Source: Arthrobacter sp. C2 | GTDB lineage: Bacteria; Actinomycetota; Actinomycetes; Actinomycetales; Micrococcaceae | DNA: 64,000 nt | Direction of reading: 5' to 3' | Assembly: GCA_024207135.1 (NCBI GenBank) | Contig: CP042428.1 | Span: forward strand, 930,001-994,000 | Shown here: in pieces, positions 20,319 to 39,675 of the stretch | Layout of the letters: the number at the start of each line of letters is the position of its first letter | How positions within the stretch are numbered: position 1 is the first letter of the stretch | Program-made: the position numbers and the translations under genes | The notes under the pieces: generated by a model | Seen by the model: the letters and a program-made list of their open reading frames with translations, nothing else | Told to the model about the DNA's origin: nothing | Databases searched by the model: none

Positions 20319-21869
20319 TCAGCCCACGTCCCCCTTGCCGTGCTGGCGCAGCTGGATCGCCACATCCACGTCCTCTGCGGTCGGGCAGGCATGGGAGTTC
20401 AAATCCGCGATGGACCAGGCAATGCGCAGCACCCGGTCATATCCGCGGGCGCTCAGCCGCAGGGACTCGGTGGCCCGGTTCAGCCCGGCCAGGGTTGCTG
20501 TCAGCAGGCGCAGGTCGTTGCGCAGGATCGCCCCGGGCACCTCGGCATTGGTGCCGATCCCCCAACGCTTGAGCCGGTCGCGGGCCGCGCCACGGGCTTC
20601 GGCGACCCGGGCGGCCACCACCGCGGAGCGTTCTCCGGTGTCGCGTCCGGCCAGCTCCCGGGCGGAGAGCTGCGGAACGAAGAGCTGCATATCGATGCGG
20701 TCCAGCAGCGGGCCCGAGAGCCGGGCCAGGTAGCGTCGGCGTTGCATCGGGGTGCAGGTGCACTCGGTCCCCTTGCCCAGGTTGCGTCCGCAGGGACACG
20801 GGTTGGCCGCCAGCAGCAGCTGGAAGCGCGCCGGGTAGCTGGCGGTGCCCGCCGCCCGGTGCAGCACCAGCACCCCGGATTCCAGGGGTTGGCGCAGCGC
20901 GTCCAGGGCCGTGGCCGAGAACTCCGGCGCCTCGTCCAGGAAGAGCACGCCCCGATGCGCCCGGGAGGCGGCACCGGGGCGCGGGATGCCGCTGCCGCCG
21001 CCGATGAGCGCGACCATGGAGGCGCTGTGGTGAGGGGACTCGAAGGGCGGGCGGCGCAGCAGCGAGGTGATGGGCGTTCCCCCGGCGGCCAACGAATGCA
21101 CGGCGGTGGTTTCCAGCGCCTGGGCATCGTCGAGGTCGGGCAGCAGCCCGGGCAGGCGTTGGGCGAGCATGGTCTTCCCAGCCCCGGGAGGCCCGGTGAA
21201 CAGCAGGTGGTGTCCTCCGGCGGCCGCGACCTCCAGGGCGTACTTGCCCTGGGCCTGGCCGAGGACCTCGGACAGGTCCGGCTCGGGGCTGCCTGTTGCC
21301 GACCATGCCGCGGCCTTGCGCGCGGGCGAATTGTGCCGGGCCATGTAGCGCAGCGCGAGGGGGTCGGCCCCGCAGTCGGCCAGGACCTGGGACAGGTGAG
21401 CGTAGGAGCGCACGCGGGCTCCTGCCACCAGTTGCGCCTCCGCGCTGTTCTCCTCGGCGACCACCACCGCCGGGCAGCCCGCGCGCACGGCGGCCATGAC
21501 GGCGGGAAGCACCCCGGGGATCGGGCGCAGGGACCCGTCGAGCCCGAGCTCGGCCAGGTAGACGACGCCCGGGGACGGGGTGATGGCCCGGTCCGCAGCC
21601 AGTGCGGCCAACAGGATGGCCAGATCGAATCCGGAGCCGCGCTTGTGCAGCGTGGCGGGGGTCAGGTTCACCGTCAGCCTGCGGTTGGGCAGCGGGATGC
21701 CGGAGTTGCGGGCCGCGGAACGGATGCGCTCACGTGATTCGTTCAATGCCGCATCGGGCAGCCCCAGCAGGATGAAGCCGGGGATGCCGTTGCCGACATC
21801 CGCTTCCACCTCGATGAGCGCCCCGGACAGGCCCGTGAGCCCGATGCCCAGGGTGCGGGCCAGGCTCAC
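20319..21869 (-). CDS. comM: ComM/YifB-type Mg-chelatase-like AAA+ ATPase
   Basis: A 516-residue AAA+ helicase that promotes branch migration during recombination of transformed DNA. The N-terminal Lon-like fold (about 1-190) includes GIPGFILLGLPDAALNESRERI, followed by Walker A TGPPGAGKTMLAQRLPGLLP and Walker B GVLFLDEAPEF, a zinc-like ANPCPCG...CTCTP cluster, and the C-terminal chelatase part. The GTG start at 21869 overlaps the yraN stop as GTGA. Together with yraN upstream and dprA downstream (now displaced) it belongs to a conserved DNA-uptake cluster. Confidence 0.92.
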   Translation of the reverse strand: MSLARTLGIGLTGLSGALIEVEADVGNGIPGFILLGLPDAALNESRERIRSAARNSGIPLPNRRLTVNLTPATLHKRGSGFDLAILLAALAADRAITPSPGVVYLAELGLDGSLRPIPGVLPAVMAAVRAGCPAVVVAEENSAEAQLVAGARVRSYAHLSQVLADCGADPLALRYMARHNSPARKAAAWSATGSPEPDLSEVLGQAQGKYALEVAAAGGHHLLFTGPPGAGKTMLAQRLPGLLPDLDDAQALETTAVHSLAAGGTPITSLLRRPPFESPHHSASMVALIGGGSGIPRPGAASRAHRGVLFLDEAPEFSATALDALRQPLESGVLVLHRAAGTASYPARFQLLLAANPCPCGRNLGKGTECTCTPMQRRRYLARLSGPLLDRIDMQLFVPQLSARELAGRDTGERSAVVAARVAEARGAARDRLKRWGIGTNAEVPGAILRNDLRLLTATLAGLNRATESLRLSARGYDRVLRIAWSIADLNSHACPTAEDVDVAIQLRQHGKGDVG

Positions 21870-22225
21870 GACTCCACCCCCACCAGGTGCTCGATGCTTG
21901 GCTGCGCACCCGGGGGCATCAGGATCGCCACCACGTCCACCCGCACGGCTCCCGGGTTGCGGCGATGGGCCACGCACCAGCGCCGCACCAGGCGCGAGAG
22001 CCTGCGCAGCTTGGCCGGGTTCACCGCCTCGGCCGGGTGCCCGAAGCCCAGCGAGCTGCGGGTCTTGACCTCCACCCCGACAACCTGGCCGTCCGTCTCT
22101 GCGACGATGTCCAACTCGCCAAGGTTGCAGCGCCAATTGCGTTCCAGCACCCTGTAGCCGGAGTTCAGCAGGTAGCTGGCGGCAAGTTCCTCGCCTTTGG
22201 CACCGAGTTCCTGGTTGTGGTTCAT
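21866..22225 (-). CDS. YraN/UPF0102 family endonuclease-like protein
   Basis: A 119-residue protein with the restriction-endonuclease-like fold of UPF0102: LGAKGEELAASYLL, then WRCNLGELDIVAETDGQVVGVEVKTR containing the E-D-ExK style acidic and Lys residues, and the C-terminal RVDVVAIL. ATG at 22225 is preceded by AGGAG. It is translationally coupled to comM, and its exact substrate is unknown. Confidence 0.9.
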   Translation of the reverse strand: MNHNQELGAKGEELAASYLLNSGYRVLERNWRCNLGELDIVAETDGQVVGVEVKTRSSLGFGHPAEAVNPAKLRRLSRLVRRWCVAHRRNPGAVRVDVVAILMPPGAQPSIEHLVGVES

Positions 22226-22400
22226 GGGCACACTCCTGGGTTCTCCGACCGCGATCCCCCGGGGACAGTGGAGGGGGTTGCTGGTCGGTTGGTTCCAAGG
22301 ATGCACCGGGCCGGACGGCGAGCGCCGGGGCGCCGGCAGCAGTGTGGATAACCGCCGGCAGTCGCCTCCGGCGAGCGCCGAGGCACCCCAACGGGGTTTT

Positions 22401-23078
22401 CTATCCCCCGTAGGGCCAGGACCAGCCGCCGTCGTCCTGTGGATCGTAGGCGACCCGTCCCGCGGTGGCCGACACGTCGAGGACCAGTTTCCCGGAAACC
22501 GTCTGGCCCGGGTTCAGCACCGGCGGCAACAGCTCCGCGTCGTCGAAGCACCCCCACGCGGTCTCCGAGGTGACATTGCGGTCGGGTTTCCCGTCCGGAG
22601 CTGCCACGGCGAAGGCCTCGGCGACCAGCGGCATGCACGATTCGTCCAGGTCACCGCCGACCTTCGCCGCGACGTTGCCTGCCAGGCTGGCCTTGACCTC
22701 CAGGATGAGGAACGCGCTGCGGGTGGGCTTCAGCGGAGTCGTGCCGACGCGGGGAGTGCATTCGGCGGCCAGGGAGGCGTTGGTGACCTCGATGGTGAAG
22801 TAGCTCTTTTGGGTTTTCTCGTCGAGAAGCCCGGCTTTCTCCCCTGCCTGCTTGCGGACGTTGGCGTGCCCATCGGTCTTCACCGTGGTGCCGGTGCCCG
22901 GGTTGGATTGCGCGATTGACGGGGCCGGTCCCGCATCTGGCGCAGGCATTCCCGTGGTTGCCGGTGCGGGGGCGGGCGCAGCCTGGGACGGATTGGGAGC
23001 CGTGGTGCCCGTGCATCCGGTGGCCGTGATGCCGATGGCCGCGGCGAGGCAGAAGAACGTGGGTGCGTGGCGTTTCAT
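22401..23078 (-). CDS. Exported protein D1 of the duplicated module, putative lipoprotein
   Basis: A 225-residue exported protein of unknown function. The signal peptide ends at ATGC (C22), an imperfect lipobox, followed by a Pro/Ala-rich linker (24-60). The mature part (about 70-225) looks like an all-beta, DUF4352-like domain with KSYFTIEVTNASLAAEC and VTSETAWGCFDDAELLPPV, ending in WSWPYGG. It starts 2 bases after the stop of S1 at a GAGGT ribosome site, so the two are translated together. Its paralog D2 (25901-26557) shares most of the C-terminal half and the same tail, but has no cysteine at the processing point. The cysteines C106 and C168 region may form a disulphide. Confidence 0.7.
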   Translation of the reverse strand: MKRHAPTFFCLAAAIGITATGCTGTTAPNPSQAAPAPAPATTGMPAPDAGPAPSIAQSNPGTGTTVKTDGHANVRKQAGEKAGLLDEKTQKSYFTIEVTNASLAAECTPRVGTTPLKPTRSAFLILEVKASLAGNVAAKVGGDLDESCMPLVAEAFAVAAPDGKPDRNVTSETAWGCFDDAELLPPVLNPGQTVSGKLVLDVSATAGRVAYDPQDDGGWSWPYGG

Positions 23079-23080
23079 GG

Positions 23081-24268
23081 TCAGTACCTCGACAGGTAGT
23101 CGCCGGAGACCACGCGGATCCCGTGCATGGACAGGTACTTGCTGATCTTGGAGCCCCCCACGTAGGCCCAGGAGATCTTGCCGTCCCGGTCGGTGACGAG
23201 CTTGCGGTTGTAGTTCTGGTCGGCCAACGGCTTGGTCGCGTCGAAGCGTTCCCACTTGTCCAGGTTTGCCAGGGTGGAACGGTAGTGCCCGGATTTGATG
23301 TCCATGCGTTCGACCACCACCGTGCGGGACCTGGAGGAGGAGGGCGTGATGAAGGACCACCACGTCTGGTGGGGCTTGAGGTACATGTTGTAGTACGCCA
23401 GCTTGGTCTTGGTTTGCTTCGTGGTCCGGCCCGAGAGGATGTGGTGGGCGGATTGGCCCTTGCGCAGGGTTCCGTAGACGACAACGGAGTGCTGGGGATG
23501 CTTGTCGAGGTACTTGTTGGAGATCCAGCCGGTGCCCTTGGAGGTCTTGGCCTTCGACCAGCCGCCCGAGGTCCTCACGTAGGTGACGCGCGTATTTGTC
23601 GGTACGACCCCCAGCGAACCGTGCCTGGTGCTGTTTCCCTTGCGGACGTTGACGTTTGCCGTGGTCCAGCGGTAGGTGGGCTTGGCGGCCGCCGCGTTCT
23701 TCAGGTAGGCCGAGGCCACCCAGCCGGTCCTGCCCTTGTAGCTGGTCCGGCTCCAGGACCCGCTGGTCGAGGTGACCACCAGCGTGGTATTGCGCGGGAT
23801 TGTGAGCAGGACCTTGGTGCCGGTGCTCTTGCCCCGGCGCAGGTTCAGGTTGTAGGTGGTTCTCTTGCGCGTGGACTTGGCAGGTGCCTTGGCGTCCGCC
23901 GCCTTCTTCAGGTAGGCCGAAGCCACCCAGCCGGTCCTGCCCTTGTAGCTGGTCCGGCTCCACGACCCGCTGGTCGAGGTGACCACCAGCGTGGTGTTGC
24001 GCGGGATGGTGACCAGGACCTTGGTGCCGGCGCTCTTGCCCCGGCGCAGGTTCAGGTTGTGGGTCGTGGTCTTCTGCTGGTTCGCGGCCTGTGCCGCGAT
24101 GGCAGCCACGCCGGCTCCGGGTGGCAGGGAGCGCGTGGACGAATCCAGGGTGGTTGCCGCGGCCGGGGCAGAGTGTGCCGGGGGCGTGGCAAGGCCGGTG
24201 GTTCCCCCGGTCACCGCGACGGCGAGGGCTATGGCCGTGCCCAATGTGTACCTGTGCAATCGAAACAC
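23081..24268 (-). CDS. Secreted SH3b-gamma-glutamylcyclotransferase-like fusion S1
   Basis: A 395-residue exported protein. After a signal peptide come three bacterial SH3 (SH3b) domains, each ending in a GWxxxxYL stretch, and a C-terminal cyclotransferase-like domain (about 260-395) that opens with VVVYGTLRKGQ, carries a Glu in VVVERMDI at the position of the family's catalytic Glu, and ends VSGDYLSRY. Known cyclotransferases turn gamma-glutamyl peptides into 5-oxoproline; export plus SH3b suggests a wall peptide target, but this is inference. The GTG start at 24268 is possible, yet a TTG at 24259 lies 6 bases after a good GAGGTG, so it may be the true start. D1 follows after 2 bases. Confidence 0.75.
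   Translation of the reverse strand: MFRLHRYTLGTAIALAVAVTGGTTGLATPPAHSAPAAATTLDSSTRSLPPGAGVAAIAAQAANQQKTTTHNLNLRRGKSAGTKVLVTIPRNTTLVVTSTSGSWSRTSYKGRTGWVASAYLKKAADAKAPAKSTRKRTTYNLNLRRGKSTGTKVLLTIPRNTTLVVTSTSGSWSRTSYKGRTGWVASAYLKNAAAAKPTYRWTTANVNVRKGNSTRHGSLGVVPTNTRVTYVRTSGGWSKAKTSKGTGWISNKYLDKHPQHSVVVYGTLRKGQSAHHILSGRTTKQTKTKLAYYNMYLKPHQTWWSFITPSSSRSRTVVVERMDIKSGHYRSTLANLDKWERFDATKPLADQNYNRKLVTDRDGKISWAYVGGSKISKYLSMHGIRVVSGDYLSRY
23703..24060 (-). repeat. Tandem direct repeat encoding two near-identical SH3b domains
   Basis: Segments 23703-23853 and 23910-24060 are 151-base direct copies, offset by 207 bases (69 codons), differing at only a few bases. They encode the first two SH3b domains of S1. 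High base identity, not just protein identity, indicates a recent in-gene duplication or gene conversion. Confidence 0.85.
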
Positions 24269-24428
24269 CTCGTTGGTTGTGGTTCCGGTGCGCCGAGTCA
24301 AGGCGACCGGGTGTTGCCTGTATCGAGGTAGTGTCCAGCCGGGGTGGAAAGGTGACGCGGGAACATCCAGGGTTTTCTGGCGGTTGTCTCGGGCCGCCGG
24401 GTGCAGGGACAACGCTGCGAAGCCGGAC

Positions 24429-24923
24429 TCAGCCGCTGGGGAAACCGAGCCCGGAGGTACCGGCGGAATGGACCTGTGCCTGGGCCGCCCGCAGAAGGTG
24501 CCCGTCGATCCCGAAGTCGACCTCGCGCGGGAGGCCGGTCCCGCACAGGCACAGCGCCAGGGGCGCCGTTCCGAAGCTGCCCGGCACCCAGTGCCCAAGG
24601 CGGGCGTAGCTTCCGCTGCGGTCCTCGGCGGATTCGCCGGCGAGCAGGCCGAGGACCGTTTCGGTCCCGTCGAGGTCGATGGACACCAGTTCCCCTTCCC
24701 CTGCCGCGTAGGAGTCCGACAGCGCCCGGAGGTAGGCAAGTTGCTCCTCGGCGGGCAGCCGGTGGAATACCCGGTCCAGGACCAGCACGGCGCCGGTGCA
24801 GTGGACGCGGGCCTCGCGCAGGGACAGCCGGTGCCGCTGGTCTTGGTGCAGCACCCGGTTGAAGGCGAGCACGTAGGGCACCTCGGTTTCGGGGACGGCA
24901 TCGTTCGGGGTTCCGGAGCTCAA
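24429..24923 (-). CDS. Unknown protein X3, short paralog of X1/X2
   Basis: A 164-residue protein without signal peptide, family not recognised. It lines up with the C-terminal half of X1 and X2: LAFNRVLHQDQRHRLSLREA matches VVLDQVIHQTPAQFLRL in X2 and VPLGRVLHHDAHEVLHLGTA in X1, followed in all three by an ARVH/AQVF/ATVH-type segment and a Leu/Val-rich strand. The N-terminal half of X1/X2 is missing. The TTG start at 24923 overlaps the X2 stop as TTGA; a GTG a few codons later is an alternative. It could be a functional small partner or a degenerating copy. Confidence 0.6.
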   Translation of the reverse strand: MSSGTPNDAVPETEVPYVLAFNRVLHQDQRHRLSLREARVHCTGAVLVLDRVFHRLPAEEQLAYLRALSDSYAAGEGELVSIDLDGTETVLGLLAGESAEDRSGSYARLGHWVPGSFGTAPLALCLCGTGLPREVDFGIDGHLLRAAQAQVHSAGTSGLGFPSG

Positions 24924-25870
24924 GTACCCGGCTCCCGGTGGCCGAAGGTGCGGATGCGTTGTGCCGCCTCGCGCAGCACGGAGGTGTCCAACCGGAACCG
25001 GACCTCCAGCGGCTCGGCAGTGCCGTCGGGCCCGATCGCGTCGTGGACGGTGAGGGTCCCGGCGAGCTCCTCGGCTTCCGGTGCGGGATGGATCCAGAAT
25101 TGGTGGTTCAGCGTGTAGCAGTGCGGCCCCACGTTCCCGTCTGCCCGGTGTGGCGCACAGGGCTGTGGCGCGCCGGTTTCCGCATCGCGAAGCTCCAGGG
25201 AGAGCTCGACGTTCCCGTGCTGTTCGTTGCTGCGCCGGAACCAGATCAATCCGTCTTCGCGCACCCCGCGCACAACGACGCAGTCGACCATCAGCAGCAC
25301 CCCGTTGCCGAAGACCTGCGCGGTGTCCAGCCGCAGGAACTGGGCCGGTGTTTGGTGGATGACTTGGTCCAGGACCACGGTGGCCCCGAGCTCGGTGGGG
25401 CGCGGCCAATGCGTGTCGTCGGCATCCCCGGTGGACTCGTTGGCCGCAACAAGTTCCGCCCAGTGATCCGGGGCGGTTAGCTCGTCCGAACCGGACCGAT
25501 CCGGCGGCACCTCGGGCAGGCCCTCGCCGGTGTACACCTCGTGCGCGACCAGGAGTTCGGCCAGCGCCGCGTGGACGCCCCCGGAGGCCGTGAACAGCTT
25601 GTGGGCGGTCTCCGGCCGGCGCAGGGCATCGGAGATCCGTCCCTGACGATCATCCAGTGCGTGGGCGTAGGCCAGCAGTGCGGCGTTCAGCGCGGGGATG
25701 GAGGCATCGAAGGCACGCTTGCCGACCTCGGGATCGTGTTCGACCTCGCCGAGTTCGAGCGACAGCGAGCTGTCATAGGCGTGGCCAGCGGTGAGGAATC
25801 CGAAGTCCTCGACTTCCGGTTCTTCCCTGTTTGGGTCCTCGGGGTCGGGCGTGCCTGGCTGCTCGCCCAT
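24920..25870 (-). CDS. Unknown protein X2 of the duplicated module
   Basis: A 316-residue acidic protein, not recognised, with no signal peptide or transmembrane helix. It has two visible parts: an Ala/Leu-rich, probably helical N-terminal half (about 25-130), and a mixed-strand C-terminal half (about 155-316) related to X1 and X3. The C-terminal end (TEPLEVRFRLDTSVLREAAQ) is nearly parallel to X1 (TEPLAIGFELDTAVLRESV). ATG at 25870 follows AAGGAG. It starts 30 bases after the D2 stop and overlaps X3, so D2-X2-X3 are likely co-transcribed. Confidence 0.65.
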   Translation of the reverse strand: MGEQPGTPDPEDPNREEPEVEDFGFLTAGHAYDSSLSLELGEVEHDPEVGKRAFDASIPALNAALLAYAHALDDRQGRISDALRRPETAHKLFTASGGVHAALAELLVAHEVYTGEGLPEVPPDRSGSDELTAPDHWAELVAANESTGDADDTHWPRPTELGATVVLDQVIHQTPAQFLRLDTAQVFGNGVLLMVDCVVVRGVREDGLIWFRRSNEQHGNVELSLELRDAETGAPQPCAPHRADGNVGPHCYTLNHQFWIHPAPEAEELAGTLTVHDAIGPDGTAEPLEVRFRLDTSVLREAAQRIRTFGHREPGT

Positions 25871-25900
25871 GTTCGTGGGGGCTCCTTCGTGGGTTCCGGG

Positions 25901-26557
25901 CTATCCTCCGTAGGGCCAGGACCAGCCGCCGTTGTCCTCGGGGTCGTAGGCCACCTTGCCCGTGGTCGCGTCCACGTCCAGGACGACCTTGCCGGTGACG
26001 CTTTGGCCGGGGTTGACCACCGGCGGCAACAGCACCGAGTCGTCGAAGCAGCCCCAGGCCGTCTCCGAGGTGACGTTGCGGTCCGGCGTCCCGCTGGAGG
26101 TGGTCACTGAGAACGCCTCGGCCACCAGCGGCATGAACAGGTCCCGGGTGCTGCCGCCGACCTGCTCGGAGACCGAGGCGGCCAGGGTGGCCTTGACATC
26201 CAGGACCAGGAACCTGGAGCGGGTCGGTGCCAGCTGCTGGTTGCCCACGCGCGAGGTGCACCGGTTCAGCAGCTGCGTCTTGGTAACCTCGATGGTGAAG
26301 TAGCTCTTGTTGGTCTGCTCATCGACCAGGCCGGCCTTTTCGCCGATCTTCTTCTGCACGTTGTCGAACCTGTCGGTTTTCACCGCGGTGCCGGTGGACG
26401 GATTGGCCTCGGCAATCGCGGGGCCCGCCACCAGGTCGCCGGGAAGCTTCCATTCGTTGCTGCTGGCGGCACCGGCGAACCCGATGCCCCAGGCCACCAA
26501 CCCCACGACCGCGGCGGATGAGACGACGCCGGTGATGATCTTGCCCTGCTTCTTCAT
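25901..26557 (-). CDS. Exported protein D2 of the duplicated module
   Basis: A 218-residue protein with an N-terminal hydrophobic segment at about 8-29 (MKKQGKIITGVVSSAAVVG) acting as signal or membrane anchor. Unlike D1 it has no cysteine at the cleavage region. The rest is the same all-beta, DUF4352-like domain with KSYFTIEVTKTQLLNRC, VTSETAWGCFDDSVLLPP and the C-terminal WSWPYGG. It begins 2 bases after the stop of S2, as D1 does after S1. Function unknown; envelope location is inferred. Confidence 0.7.
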   Translation of the reverse strand: MKKQGKIITGVVSSAAVVGLVAWGIGFAGAASSNEWKLPGDLVAGPAIAEANPSTGTAVKTDRFDNVQKKIGEKAGLVDEQTNKSYFTIEVTKTQLLNRCTSRVGNQQLAPTRSRFLVLDVKATLAASVSEQVGGSTRDLFMPLVAEAFSVTTSSGTPDRNVTSETAWGCFDDSVLLPPVVNPGQSVTGKVVLDVDATTGKVAYDPEDNGGWSWPYGG

Positions 26558-26559
26558 GC

Positions 26560-28215
26560 TCAGAACCTCTTCAGGTAGTCGCCGGAAGTCACACGGATTC
26601 CGTTTTTGGTCAGGTAGGCCCCGATCTTCTTCGAGCCCAGGTAGGCCCAGGACCTGTGGCCGTCCCTGTCGGTGACCAGCACGCGGTTGTAGTTCTGGTC
26701 GGCCAGCGGCTTGTTGGGGTTGAAACGCTCCCACTTGTCCATGTTCACCACGGTCGCCCGGTAGCTGGCTGGCTTGATCTCCATCCGCTCGACAACCACC
26801 TTGTCAGCGGCGCTCTTGCTGGGGATGACGTAGGAGAGCCAGGTCTTGTTCGGCTGCAGGTACATGCGGTGCGAGGCGATCGTGGTCTTGGTTTCCTTCG
26901 AGGTCTTGCCCTTGAGGATGTAGTACGCCGACTGTCCCTTGCGCAGGGTTCCGTAGACGGCGAAGGAGTGCTGGCCTTCCTTGTCCAGATATTGGTTGGA
27001 GATCCAGCCGGTGCCCTTGGATGAGACCACGTTCGACCAGCCGTTGGCGGTCTTGAGGTAGGTGACGCGCTCGTTGGCCGGGACCTTGCCCAGGGACTTG
27101 TGCGAGGTGCCCGACCCCTTGCGGATGTTGACCGTTGCCGTGGTCCAGCGGTAGGTCGCCTTCGGTGCCGGGGGCTTGGCGGTGGTGGGGCCGATGGTGC
27201 TGGTGGACAGCGTGGAGGTCGGCACCCAGCCGTTGCCGTTGCCAGTCCGGATCCCGGTCCAGCCGCCGCTGGTGCGCAGCCACTCGACCTTGGCGCCCTT
27301 TTTCATCGAGGTGACCTTGGCGGACTTGTTGTTGGTGCCCGCGTACACGGCCTGCGTCGATTTCAGCCAGCGGTGCACGATGGCGGGATTGGTCTTGGAC
27401 AGGTGGGCGGACTCGATGTAGCCGGTCTTTCCCGACACCTTGACCTTGCTCCAGGACCCGGAGGCCGCGAGGTACTCGACCTTGGCACGGCGCTGGTAGA
27501 CCCCCAGCGATGCGCTGGTCTTCGATGCGCCCTGGCGCAGCGTGGTGAACCCGGTGGTGTAGCGGTGCGTGGCGGCCTGTGGCTTGGGTGCCGGCTTCTT
27601 GGCCGCGGGGGCGTTCTTGAGGTAGCTGGAGGCCACCCAGCCGGTCTTGCCCTTGTACTTGGTCTTGCTCCAGGTGCCGCTGGTTGCGGTGACGGTGATG
27701 GTGGTGTTCTTCGGGATGGTCGCCAACGCCTTGGTCTTGGTGCTCTTTCCCTGGCGCAGGTTGAGGTTGTTCTTGGTGATCTTTTGGGCGGAGGGCTTGG
27801 CTTTTGCCTGGGGACCGGACTTCTGGGGTGCCGGCTGCTTCGCGGCCGGTGCGTTCTTCAGGTACCGGGAGGCGACCCAACCGGTCTTGCCCTTGTACTT
27901 GGTCTTGCTCCAGGTGCCGATGGTCTCGGTGACGGTCAGAGCGGCGTTCTTCGGGATCACCAGCAGGACCTTGGCCTTGGCGCTGCGCGACTTGCGCAGG
28001 TTCAGGTTGTTGGTGGTGGCCTTCTTCAGGTTCACCTTTTTCGCGGCGATGCCCAGTGGCACACTGCCCATCGGTTCCAGCAGCCCCGGCATGGCCCACG
28101 ACGTTGTTGCTGCCGGAGCGAGGATCTGGCTGGTCGCCGGAGACATGAAACCGGTGCTGCTTCCCGTCACGGCGATGGCCAGTGCCAGCACGGCGGCGAT
28201 TCTTTTCTTTTGCAC
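26560..28215 (-). CDS. Secreted SH3b-gamma-glutamylcyclotransferase-like fusion S2
   Basis: A 551-residue exported protein, paralog of S1. The signal peptide VQKKRIAAVLALAIAVTGSS is followed by five SH3b domains (each with a GWV/GYI strand near its end) at roughly 68-400, and a C-terminal cyclotransferase-like domain (416-551) with AVYGTLRKGQ, VVVERMEIKP and VTSGDYLKRF. The catalytic-type Glu is conserved. S1 has only three SH3b domains, so the number of wall-binding modules has changed between copies. GTG at 28215 has a GGGGGAT ribosome site. A 256-base gap upstream likely holds its promoter; D2 follows after 2 bases. Confidence 0.75.
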   Translation of the reverse strand: MQKKRIAAVLALAIAVTGSSTGFMSPATSQILAPAATTSWAMPGLLEPMGSVPLGIAAKKVNLKKATTNNLNLRKSRSAKAKVLLVIPKNAALTVTETIGTWSKTKYKGKTGWVASRYLKNAPAAKQPAPQKSGPQAKAKPSAQKITKNNLNLRQGKSTKTKALATIPKNTTITVTATSGTWSKTKYKGKTGWVASSYLKNAPAAKKPAPKPQAATHRYTTGFTTLRQGASKTSASLGVYQRRAKVEYLAASGSWSKVKVSGKTGYIESAHLSKTNPAIVHRWLKSTQAVYAGTNNKSAKVTSMKKGAKVEWLRTSGGWTGIRTGNGNGWVPTSTLSTSTIGPTTAKPPAPKATYRWTTATVNIRKGSGTSHKSLGKVPANERVTYLKTANGWSNVVSSKGTGWISNQYLDKEGQHSFAVYGTLRKGQSAYYILKGKTSKETKTTIASHRMYLQPNKTWLSYVIPSKSAADKVVVERMEIKPASYRATVVNMDKWERFNPNKPLADQNYNRVLVTDRDGHRSWAYLGSKKIGAYLTKNGIRVTSGDYLKRF

Positions 28216-28471
28216 TCGGATCCCCCATTGGTCCTGTTTTGCCCGATGCCGTGCACGGCCGCGGTGGCGGCCCCGGCGACGGCACATGATCAACCATACG
28301 TGCGACGAATGGACGATCTGCATTTGCACGCGATCGTTACGGATCAATGTACTGACTTTTGCGACGCGTTGGTAGTGGCCAGAAGCGCCAAGGCAAGTTG
28401 TGAAGTTCTGCCATCAACTGTGCGGAATACCGGCACGCCCGGCGCAGCGGCGGGCTGCCGGGCCGCCGCCT

Positions 28472-29443
28472 TCAGGCTCCCGTGGCGTGGTTCCCGAACC
28501 TGCGGATGCCGGTCACCGACTCGCGCAACACCGCGGTGTCCAACTCGAACCCGATGGCCAGCGGCTCGGTGCGCCCCTCCGCGGTGGGCGCGCCGTTGAC
28601 CGTGAACGTTCCGGCGAGCAGGTCGGCATCCAGGGCGCGCGAAACCCAGAAGCGGTGGACCAGCCGGTAGCACCCGCTCTCCACGTTCCCCTCGCCCCCG
28701 TGCACCTCGGCGGGGTAGCGGGTCCCGGTGCCGGGGTCCCCCAGCTCCAGCCCGAGTTCGACCGCACCGAGAGTCTCGTGGCTCCGTCGGTGCCAGCTCA
28801 GGGCGTCCTCGTGGGCCCCGCGCAGGTTCAGGTAGTCGAAGGACAACAGCACCCCGGTGCTGTGCACCGTCGCGGTTCCCAGATGCAGCACTTCGTGCGC
28901 GTCGTGGTGCAGCACCCTGCCCAGGGGCACCGTGGCGCCCACTTCGTCGAGCCGCGGCCCGAAGCGTTCCTCCTCCTGGTCCCGGGTGAGCTCGTCTGCT
29001 TCCAGCATCCGGGCCCAGTCCTCCGGGTCCCCCGGGTCGAACGGCACCTCGCGATACAGCGGGCCTTCCAGGAACGAGTGGCCCGTCCAGGCCCGGTGCC
29101 CCAGGCCCAGGTCCTCGAGTGCGTCGTGCACCGCGTCGGAGGCGGCCAGCAACTCGGTGTCTTCATGCTCCGGGCCAAGGGCGGCGTCGAAGTCCGGCTC
29201 GCGGGTCCCCAGCACCTGCAGGTAACCGTGCAGCGCTGTGTTCAGGCCTGAGATCGCGGATTCGAAGGCATGCTTGCCAGCCCGGGCGTCCGGGGCCCTG
29301 TCATCGAATTCAAAGGACAAGGCGCTAAGGAAGGGTAGGCCGTTCCGGGTGCCGCCCGACATCCTGCCGAAGGAAACCGTCCCGGCCTCCTGCTCCGGCG
29401 TGTTTTCCCCGTCGGGATCCCCGTGGCCTGGGCGTTCGCTCAT
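28472..29443 (-). CDS. Unknown protein X1 of the duplicated module
   Basis: A 323-residue acidic, signal-less protein, family not recognised, paralog of X2 (and of X3 in its C-terminal half). Shared segments include GATVPLGRVLHHDAHEVL and AGTFTVNGAPTAEGRTEPLA. The N-terminal half is helical and contains ISGLNTALHGYLQVL, matching IPALNAALLAYAHAL in X2. ATG at 29443 has a GGAAGGA site. It lies upstream of S2 and D2 in the same direction, as X2-X3 lie upstream of S1-D1. No catalytic motif stands out. Confidence 0.65.
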   Translation of the reverse strand: MSERPGHGDPDGENTPEQEAGTVSFGRMSGGTRNGLPFLSALSFEFDDRAPDARAGKHAFESAISGLNTALHGYLQVLGTREPDFDAALGPEHEDTELLAASDAVHDALEDLGLGHRAWTGHSFLEGPLYREVPFDPGDPEDWARMLEADELTRDQEEERFGPRLDEVGATVPLGRVLHHDAHEVLHLGTATVHSTGVLLSFDYLNLRGAHEDALSWHRRSHETLGAVELGLELGDPGTGTRYPAEVHGGEGNVESGCYRLVHRFWVSRALDADLLAGTFTVNGAPTAEGRTEPLAIGFELDTAVLRESVTGIRRFGNHATGA

Positions 29444-29602: not shown

Positions 29603-29923
29603 CTAGTTCAGCCCGTCCTTGGGAATGGAGAGGTCATCGACGCGGTTCAGTTCCTCGATGTTCACGTCCTTGAAGGTCACGATGCGCACCGACTGCACGA
29701 AGCGGCCGGTGCGGTAGACATCCCAGACCCAGGCGTCGGTGAGCGTGAGGTCGAAGAAGACCTCGCCGTCGGCCGAGCGGGTCTTGAGGTCCACGTTGTT
29801 GGCCAGGTAAAAACGCCGCTCGGTTTCCACGACGTAATTGAAGAGGTTCGCCACGTCCTTGTATTCGCGGTAAAGCTGCAGCTCGAGTTCCGCTTCGTAG
29901 TTTTCCAGGTCTTCGGCACTCAT
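29603..29923 (-). CDS. DUF2469 family protein
   Basis: A 106-residue acidic protein of the actinobacterial DUF2469 family, recognisable by MSAEDLENYEAELELQLYRE and by the Phe-rich middle (FNYVVETERRFYLANNV). It overlaps the rnhB stop with its ATG at 29923, behind a GGGGAG site, and the pair rnhB-DUF2469 is conserved in actinobacteria. Function is unknown. It is the last gene before the inserted duplicated module. Confidence 0.92.
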   Translation of the reverse strand: MSAEDLENYEAELELQLYREYKDVANLFNYVVETERRFYLANNVDLKTRSADGEVFFDLTLTDAWVWDVYRTGRFVQSVRIVTFKDVNIEELNRVDDLSIPKDGLN

Positions 29924-37263: not shown

Positions 37264-37776
37264 GAATGCATCTCCTAAATAGACGCCGCAGGTCACCTAT
37301 TTTAGACACGGACCGTAATTGTTCCCCGGGGCGCACAAGTGCGTTCGGAAAAAAGATGTGGCGGTCCGAAGCTTGGTACCGCGATCCGTTTGCGGATCGA
37401 CGGCTGGTCCAACTGTTGACTCGTTCCCCCTGCGGCAGGAGCAGAACCCAGTAGACCCAAGAATCTATTTTGCCACACTCCGGGGCATGGCGCGAAGTTC
37501 CCCACCCACAGGCGGACCCGCATCGAAAGGATCTGCCCGATGATGCTCCGGGTCTGAGCAGCACCGGCAGTGTCTGCCCGGACGGGATCCCGCCGCGATC
37601 GCGGCTCCGAACGCGCCAAGGGGACCGTAAACCCGCCACGAAAAGGCCCGATTCGATCGGAACCAGTCATCGGGAACGCATTGAACAAACACCGGACCGC
37701 GCCGCCGGGCGCAACCTACCGGTGCCCAAGGTCACAAACGGTGCCGTTCCGGATCATGTGATAGTTTCGTTTTCGA
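37264..37776. other. Divergent region between rplS and the thiC riboswitch
   Basis: About 510 bases between leftward rplS and the rightward thiC leader. It must carry promoters for both. Small open frames lack ribosome sites. No further structure was recognised before the riboswitch at 37777. Confidence 0.5.

Positions 37777-39675
<1,899 letters not shown>

Follow-up and report, generated by a model that had tools for sequence, protein, structure and literature searches.

A gene pair for a predicted SH3b-repeat cyclotransferase and a DUF4352-like partner, with separable X genes nearby, in Paeniglutamicibacter and its relatives

Introduction

Known cyclotransferases of the gamma-glutamylamine cyclotransferase/AIG2-like family (PF06094, GGACT) act on small gamma-glutamyl compounds. 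The mouse enzyme A2LD1, with residues numbered to 149 in the accessible text of PMC2954230, is a small, stand-alone protein, and that text gives its site as Tyr7, Gly8, Thr9, Leu10, Ile50, Glu82, Tyr88, Tyr115 and Tyr143. Small and stand-alone too is a 165-aa PF06094 protein at one of the loci surveyed here (L139). Two further groups are relevant: bacterial surface proteins with SH3 domains (PF08239, SH3_3), where the usual partners of SH3b repeats are wall hydrolases, and exported proteins carrying DUF4352 (PF11611), whose fold is an Ig-like beta-sandwich, with DUF1942 (PF09167) as a weaker look-alike.

Here, we describe a locus in a 64,000-nucleotide stretch (the window) of the genome of Arthrobacter sp. 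C2, which consists of a single contig of 4.56 Mb. Two of its genes, S1 and S2, encode proteins with a C-terminal domain like that of GGACT, in which the YGTL, Glu and Tyr catalytic positions are kept, and with SH3_3 repeats like those of the bacterial surface proteins. Unlike the small PF06094 enzymes, S adds an export signal (called by eye), surface repeats and a partner, D, which resembles the DUF4352 proteins by way of a stand-alone family. A cyclotransferase looks unusual as a partner of SH3b repeats. A first-pass annotation of this DNA had recognized no known system of this composition, and that gap is now partly filled, with S assigned to SH3_3 plus PF06094/GGACT and D appearing distantly DUF4352-like.

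Organization of the locus

Open reading frame coordinates and pairwise comparison bear out two parts of the first-pass annotation: seven minus-strand genes in the order X1-S2-D2-X2-X3-S1-D1 that fall into three paralogous families, and a spacing of 2 bases from S to D in both copies (Table 1). The paralogues share 60% (S1/S2), 59% (D1/D2) and 41% (X1/X2) identity, and X3 aligns with the C-terminal half of X alone (hhalign 96.0%, E 4.5e-9). The start codons of S1, S2 and X3 were picked by eye. Grouped by spacing, the genes form [X1], [S2-D2-X2-X3] and [S1-D1] rather than X-S-D twice. The four-gene group lies 256 bases from X1 and 169 bases from S1-D1, and inside it gaps of 2 and 30 bases are followed by a 4-base overlap of X2 and X3. 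A promoter scan returned 0 promoter-like sites (0.4 expected), and the 5 terminator-like sites found (6.3 expected) are all on the plus strand, the genes being on the minus strand; with no such signal for the genes, the grouping into operons is one of spacing only.

Table 1. Features of the locus and its boundaries, in window coordinates
Feature	Position	Strand	Length (aa)	Description
DUF2469 gene	29603..29923	-		5' boundary of the variable interval; Pfam match; start codon by eye
X1	28472..29443	-	323	N-terminal part of ~160 aa plus C-terminal domain common to an unannotated family; no signal peptide by eye
S2	26560..28215	-	551	GTG start and signal peptide by eye; ends in GGACT after 5 SH3_3 repeats
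S2 GGACT domain (PF06094)	26563..26970	-		YGTL at residues 421-424; Glu496, judged by motif, is the counterpart of Glu82, a catalytic residue in mouse GGACT
AGAGG, ribosome-binding-like motif for D2	26566..26570	-		Within the last codons of S2
D2	25901..26557	-	218	DUF4352-like; export/anchor segment at the N-terminus (by eye) and two invariant Cys
X2	24920..25870	-	316	X1 paralogue; start 30 bases past D2
X3	24429..24923	-	164	TTG start by eye, overlaps X2 stop; C-terminal X domain only
S1	23081..24259	-	392	TTG start and signal peptide by eye; ends in GGACT after 3 SH3_3 repeats
S1 GGACT domain (PF06094)	23084..23491	-		Profile match
GAGG, ribosome-binding-like motif for D1	23087..23090	-		Within the last codons of S1
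D1	22401..23078	-	225	DUF4352-like; close to the N-terminus, TATGC resembles a lipobox (by eye)
yraN (UPF0102) open frame	21866..22306	-		3' boundary of the variable interval; Pfam match

The surrounding cluster includes lepB, rnhB and comM (names by eye), and the same cluster was found in relatives. Elsewhere in the window, a TPP riboswitch lies at 37771-37878 on the plus strand.

The S protein

Both S proteins score above the cut-offs of the families to which we assign them. Against PF06094 (cut-off 22.8), S2 reaches 35.7 bits and S1 39.9 bits; against SH3_3 (cut-off 27), S2 reaches 177.7 bits in five stretches and S1 116.1 bits in three. The SH3 repeats also bring the S proteins into NCBIfam TIGR04211 (126.7 and 68.8 bits, cut-off 65). 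S1 and S2 are the sole PF06094 matches in the whole genome. Every one of the 18 S-type domains in the alignment matches PF06094 (E up to 1), and the domain at L047 falls narrowly under the curated cut-off (22.1 versus 22.8 bits). In the S-type alignment, the catalytic Glu column holds E in 25 of 25 sequences, the Tyr of YxR is conserved in 25 of 25, another Tyr is kept in 24 of 25, and the positions of the YGTL substrate loop in 23-24 of 24; these residues were mapped onto mouse GGACT by motif and not by structure, in a mapping that leaves out Ile50 and Tyr143. When the S-domain profile was compared with the PDB, the top match was a kinase regulatory subunit (E 1.1e-4), probably by chance, behind which ranks the UPF0131 structure 1v30 (E 0.003). 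The domain make-up of S and the retention of its catalytic positions are thus well supported by profile and alignment. From the signal peptides called by eye, S is predicted to be exported, and we take it to be a putative active surface cyclotransferase with a gamma-glutamyl substrate.

The D protein

The relation of D to DUF4352 runs through its relatives. D1 and D2 themselves stay under the curated DUF4352 cut-off; in Pfam, D1 matches DEC-1_N alone (E 0.45) and D2 no family at E up to 1. In NCBIfam, D2 has a weak match to PepSY (E 0.07). Aligned over its full length with a family of stand-alone relatives, D scores 99.9% in hhalign (E 1.5e-34). At E up to 1, DUF4352 is matched by 13 of 20 of these relatives (1.1e-5 for the best) and DUF1942 by 2 of 20. 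D therefore appears to be distantly DUF4352-like. Two Cys are invariant across 15 aligned D sequences. PDB sequence searches gave no relative, with best E values of 0.54 for D and 0.039 for the stand-alone relatives, and a literature search on DUF4352 with SH3 or lipoprotein gave nothing relevant among the matches listed.

The first-pass annotation had suggested that S and D are exported, with which the export signals seen by eye in both agree; D is likewise predicted to leave the cell and would serve as a partner of S.

The S-D pair across genomes

To follow the pair, we defined close D genes as those with E at most 2e-35, dropping four loci that duplicate others (L101-L104) and fragments in L037, L043 and L105. 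Within 3 kb and on the same strand, GGACT accompanies D at 19 of the 20 complete close D genes outside the window. The one close D gene that has neither a GGACT nor an SH3 neighbour within this same-strand limit is at L045, and at L037 the GGACT neighbour of D is truncated. The stand-alone relatives of DUF4352 type are unlike D in this respect: 0 of 23 distant D loci, some of them cut by contig ends, have GGACT or SH3 nearby. L043 (5059-5920) holds a further S-D copy, which is broken: there, an open frame carrying part of a Mutator-family transposase runs into the end of D.

In Paeniglutamicibacter, which is 'the genus' in all counts below, D is present in 15 of 15 genomes (8 in one search and 7 in another). 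Outside the family, a search of 297 genomes of the order found D (E up to 1e-20) in three besides that of the window; S adjoins D in all three of these further genomes, which belong to two other families, and one of them (G405) has an additional D at a contig end, where S is out of view. Across the phylum, D was found at E up to 1e-15 in two of 346 genomes, namely that of the window and another from its family.

The N-terminal anchor of S differs between loci. SLH plus SH3 domains are found at L041, where the gene order is D-S, and SLH plus FG-GAP at L167, with GGACT and D retained in both; L159, where GGACT and D are likewise kept, has FG-GAP-like repeats under the cut-off, and L158 a segment without an identified domain. 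What is fixed across loci is GGACT plus D, while the anchors change. The converse does not hold: of 17 genomes with PF06094 among 149 of the family, 10 have D adjoining and 7 have no D match, so GGACT alone does not imply D. One PF06094 gene without a D match (L154, in G087) has a signal-peptide-like start by eye. At L150 and L153, in two genomes of one genus, the open frame continues past GGACT into a region that by eye resembles a GDSL-type hydrolase.

Wall-type or surface anchors that recur in this way would be needless for a soluble salvage enzyme, which counts against the idea that S serves the uptake of external gamma-glutamyl peptides or glutathione-like nutrients, its repeats only holding it on the surface and D being a ligand-binding helper. 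Salvage is in keeping with the use of small gamma-glutamyl amines by GGACT-type enzymes (the enzyme is named in PMC2954230) and with a genome that has no further PF06094 match; on balance, we consider it unlikely. We prefer to see S as a surface cyclotransferase that would act, perhaps on the wall, together with D.

The pair is also closely spaced and co-inherited. With the start taken as the first ATG or GTG, 14 of 22 pairs have an S-D gap of exactly 2 bases, every one of them among the 16 pairs of the genus, and GAGG occurs in the final S codons in 13 of 22. The distance matrices of S and D correlate at r = 0.92 over 25 pairs (the truncated S of G022 included), a value reached in 0 of 2000 permutations and partly reflecting shared species history. 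The S-D pair thus appears to be the conserved unit, as is well supported by linkage and co-inheritance. It can also decay, given that S is truncated in G022 and both S and D are interrupted in G210.

Duplication and decay of copies, exchange of N-terminal anchors, a patchy spread outside the genus and the layout of an enzyme with a small partner would all suit a system of antagonism and protection, in which S would break a gamma-glutamyl bond in competitors' walls and the producer would be protected by exported D. Set against this are the presence of D throughout the genus, which is more like a housekeeping trait, the joint increase of S and D distances, and the fact that six of the seven proteins have no PADLOC match. 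Such a role is in our judgement distinctly improbable, and a surface enzyme with a retained partner stays our preferred reading of S-D. Two other origins were also considered and rejected. For a known defence system, the six proteins other than S1 matched no PADLOC family (E up to 0.1). For phage or plasmid cargo, D2, the sole protein searched, had no match in the phage or plasmid collection, and in PHROGs X1-X3 had none and D1 and D2 weak ones only (best E 0.011).

X genes and the variable interval

X1, X2 and X3 have no match in Pfam, NCBIfam, PHROG or PADLOC, and a PDB sequence search with X gave no relative (best E 0.27). Among 395 genomes of the family, 24 have a match to X, the long matches being confined to 13 of the 15 genus members; relatives of X were found in P. 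psychrophenolicus, P. terrestris, P. sulfureus and Arthrobacter sp. AQ5-05, by which we assign the genome to Paeniglutamicibacter. The remaining 11 genomes have short matches, ten of which lie inside open frames of 206-308 aa that form one family, while the eleventh (G010) looks like chance. In hhalign, the profile of this unannotated family (L112-L122) matches X over the C-terminal half (96.0%); the family has no Pfam match in the four members scanned and no NCBIfam match in the three scanned.

The interval between DUF2469 and yraN is filled differently from genome to genome. The window holds X-SD-X-X3-SD. G111, G050 and G141 have X-SD-X-X3, with a single S-D; G126, G074 and G219 have X-SD, G190 has X-SD-SD, G156 has SD-SD-X, and G168 has a D fragment, SD and X. 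In G022, there are S-D remnants and one D, with X absent, and the interval lacks S-D but holds two X genes in G094, X-X3 in G210 and X in G180. Where X is present, it is inside the interval in 13 of 13 genomes; S-D is inside in 11 of 15, the pair sitting outside in G094, G180, G200 and G210. From these arrangements, it follows that the copy numbers of X and S-D vary independently. The first-pass annotation had taken the locus for an X-S-D triad duplicated in tandem, and this is contradicted by the three near relatives with X1-S-D-X2-X3 and one S-D, and by the others with X-SD-SD and SD-SD-X. Separately, DUF2469 has a tandem duplicate in G126 and G074 (P. terrestris), at L038 12948-13827 and L039 5076-6072.

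A single three-part machine of X, S and D, with X in the cytoplasm, would account for the joint presence of X and an S-D pair in the interval in 10 of the 15 genus genomes and for the start of X2 only 30 bases past D2. It is hard to square with G180, where X (at 1.34 Mb) and S-D (at 3.30 Mb) are far apart on one contig, or with G094 and G210, where they are on separate contigs. In G200 and G022, D is present and X was not found, S-D pairs outside the genus stand without full-length X, X remains in the interval even where S-D is gone, and in G050 the X genes look interrupted, with S-D open. We regard such a machine as very unlikely. The first-pass annotation, which had the products acting together and named wide separation of the genes in other genomes as the evidence against this, is therefore partly supported: the check speaks for it with S and D, which are linked, co-inherited and stay together, and against it with X as a third part, which is found apart. 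Its tentative placing of X in the cytoplasm fits the lack of a signal peptide, by eye, in X, and X is probably a cytoplasmic neighbour, separable from S-D and not a required part.

A proposed role for S-D

Our leading interpretation of the pair is a surface cyclotransferase with an exported partner that would act on gamma-glutamyl groups, perhaps the bridge Glu of the wall; we hold it tentatively, at a little under an even chance. The locus comprises two copies of a conserved S-D cassette in a variable DUF2469-yraN interval that also hosts genus-specific X genes. On this interpretation, S would be exported and held on the surface via its N-terminal repeats (here SH3b), and its C-terminal cyclotransferase domain would release 5-oxoproline from a gamma-glutamyl group exposed there. 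D would be translated straight after S, probably by translational coupling, and exported, most likely binding S or the wall target of S and so stabilizing or regulating S. The likeliest substrate would be gamma-linked Glu that is left free where interpeptide bridges are uncrosslinked. We infer export, activity, the contact between D and S, and the substrate.

Genus-wide retention and wall-type anchors suggest a substrate in the wall, and a surface-anchored cyclotransferase kept with an exported partner despite anchor exchange points to an extracellular gamma-glutamyl substrate. Bridge Glu is favoured because the wall of the genus is of the A4alpha type, with a Glu-containing, gamma-linked bridge. 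In the accessible text of the literature, PMC6113628 and PMC4786123 included, no statement of a Glu bridge was found for this genus, nor did literature searches find a paper on a peptidoglycan- or SH3-linked gamma-glutamylcyclotransferase. If bridge Glu of A4alpha walls were the substrate, S-D would represent a new peptidoglycan-editing route, and a class of exported proteins that lack annotation would gain a function. A specific form of this idea, a new kind of editing in which a wall-anchored cyclotransferase takes free Glu off uncrosslinked bridges as 5-oxoproline and thereby controls the number of crosslinkable bridges, with D as exported cofactor or brake, strikes us as a rather unlikely one.

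Age of the two S-D copies

The two S-D copies of the window do not appear to be recent duplicates of each other. D2 shares 97% identity with the G111 D protein, yet 59-60% with D1. Pairs of the S2-D2 type are found in eight genomes and form one group in both trees (support 1.000 for S and 0.721 for D). D1 groups with the D of G022 (support 0.994), and S1 has a weak placement (0.697) with G126 and G074; in the corresponding X tree, G156 is represented by the longer piece of its X only. The closeness of D2 to the G111 protein and the tree groupings together indicate that the split between S1-D1 and S2-D2 is old. By these identities and trees, S1-D1 is best read as an older, divergent pair that was kept or regained here, and not as a fresh tandem copy.
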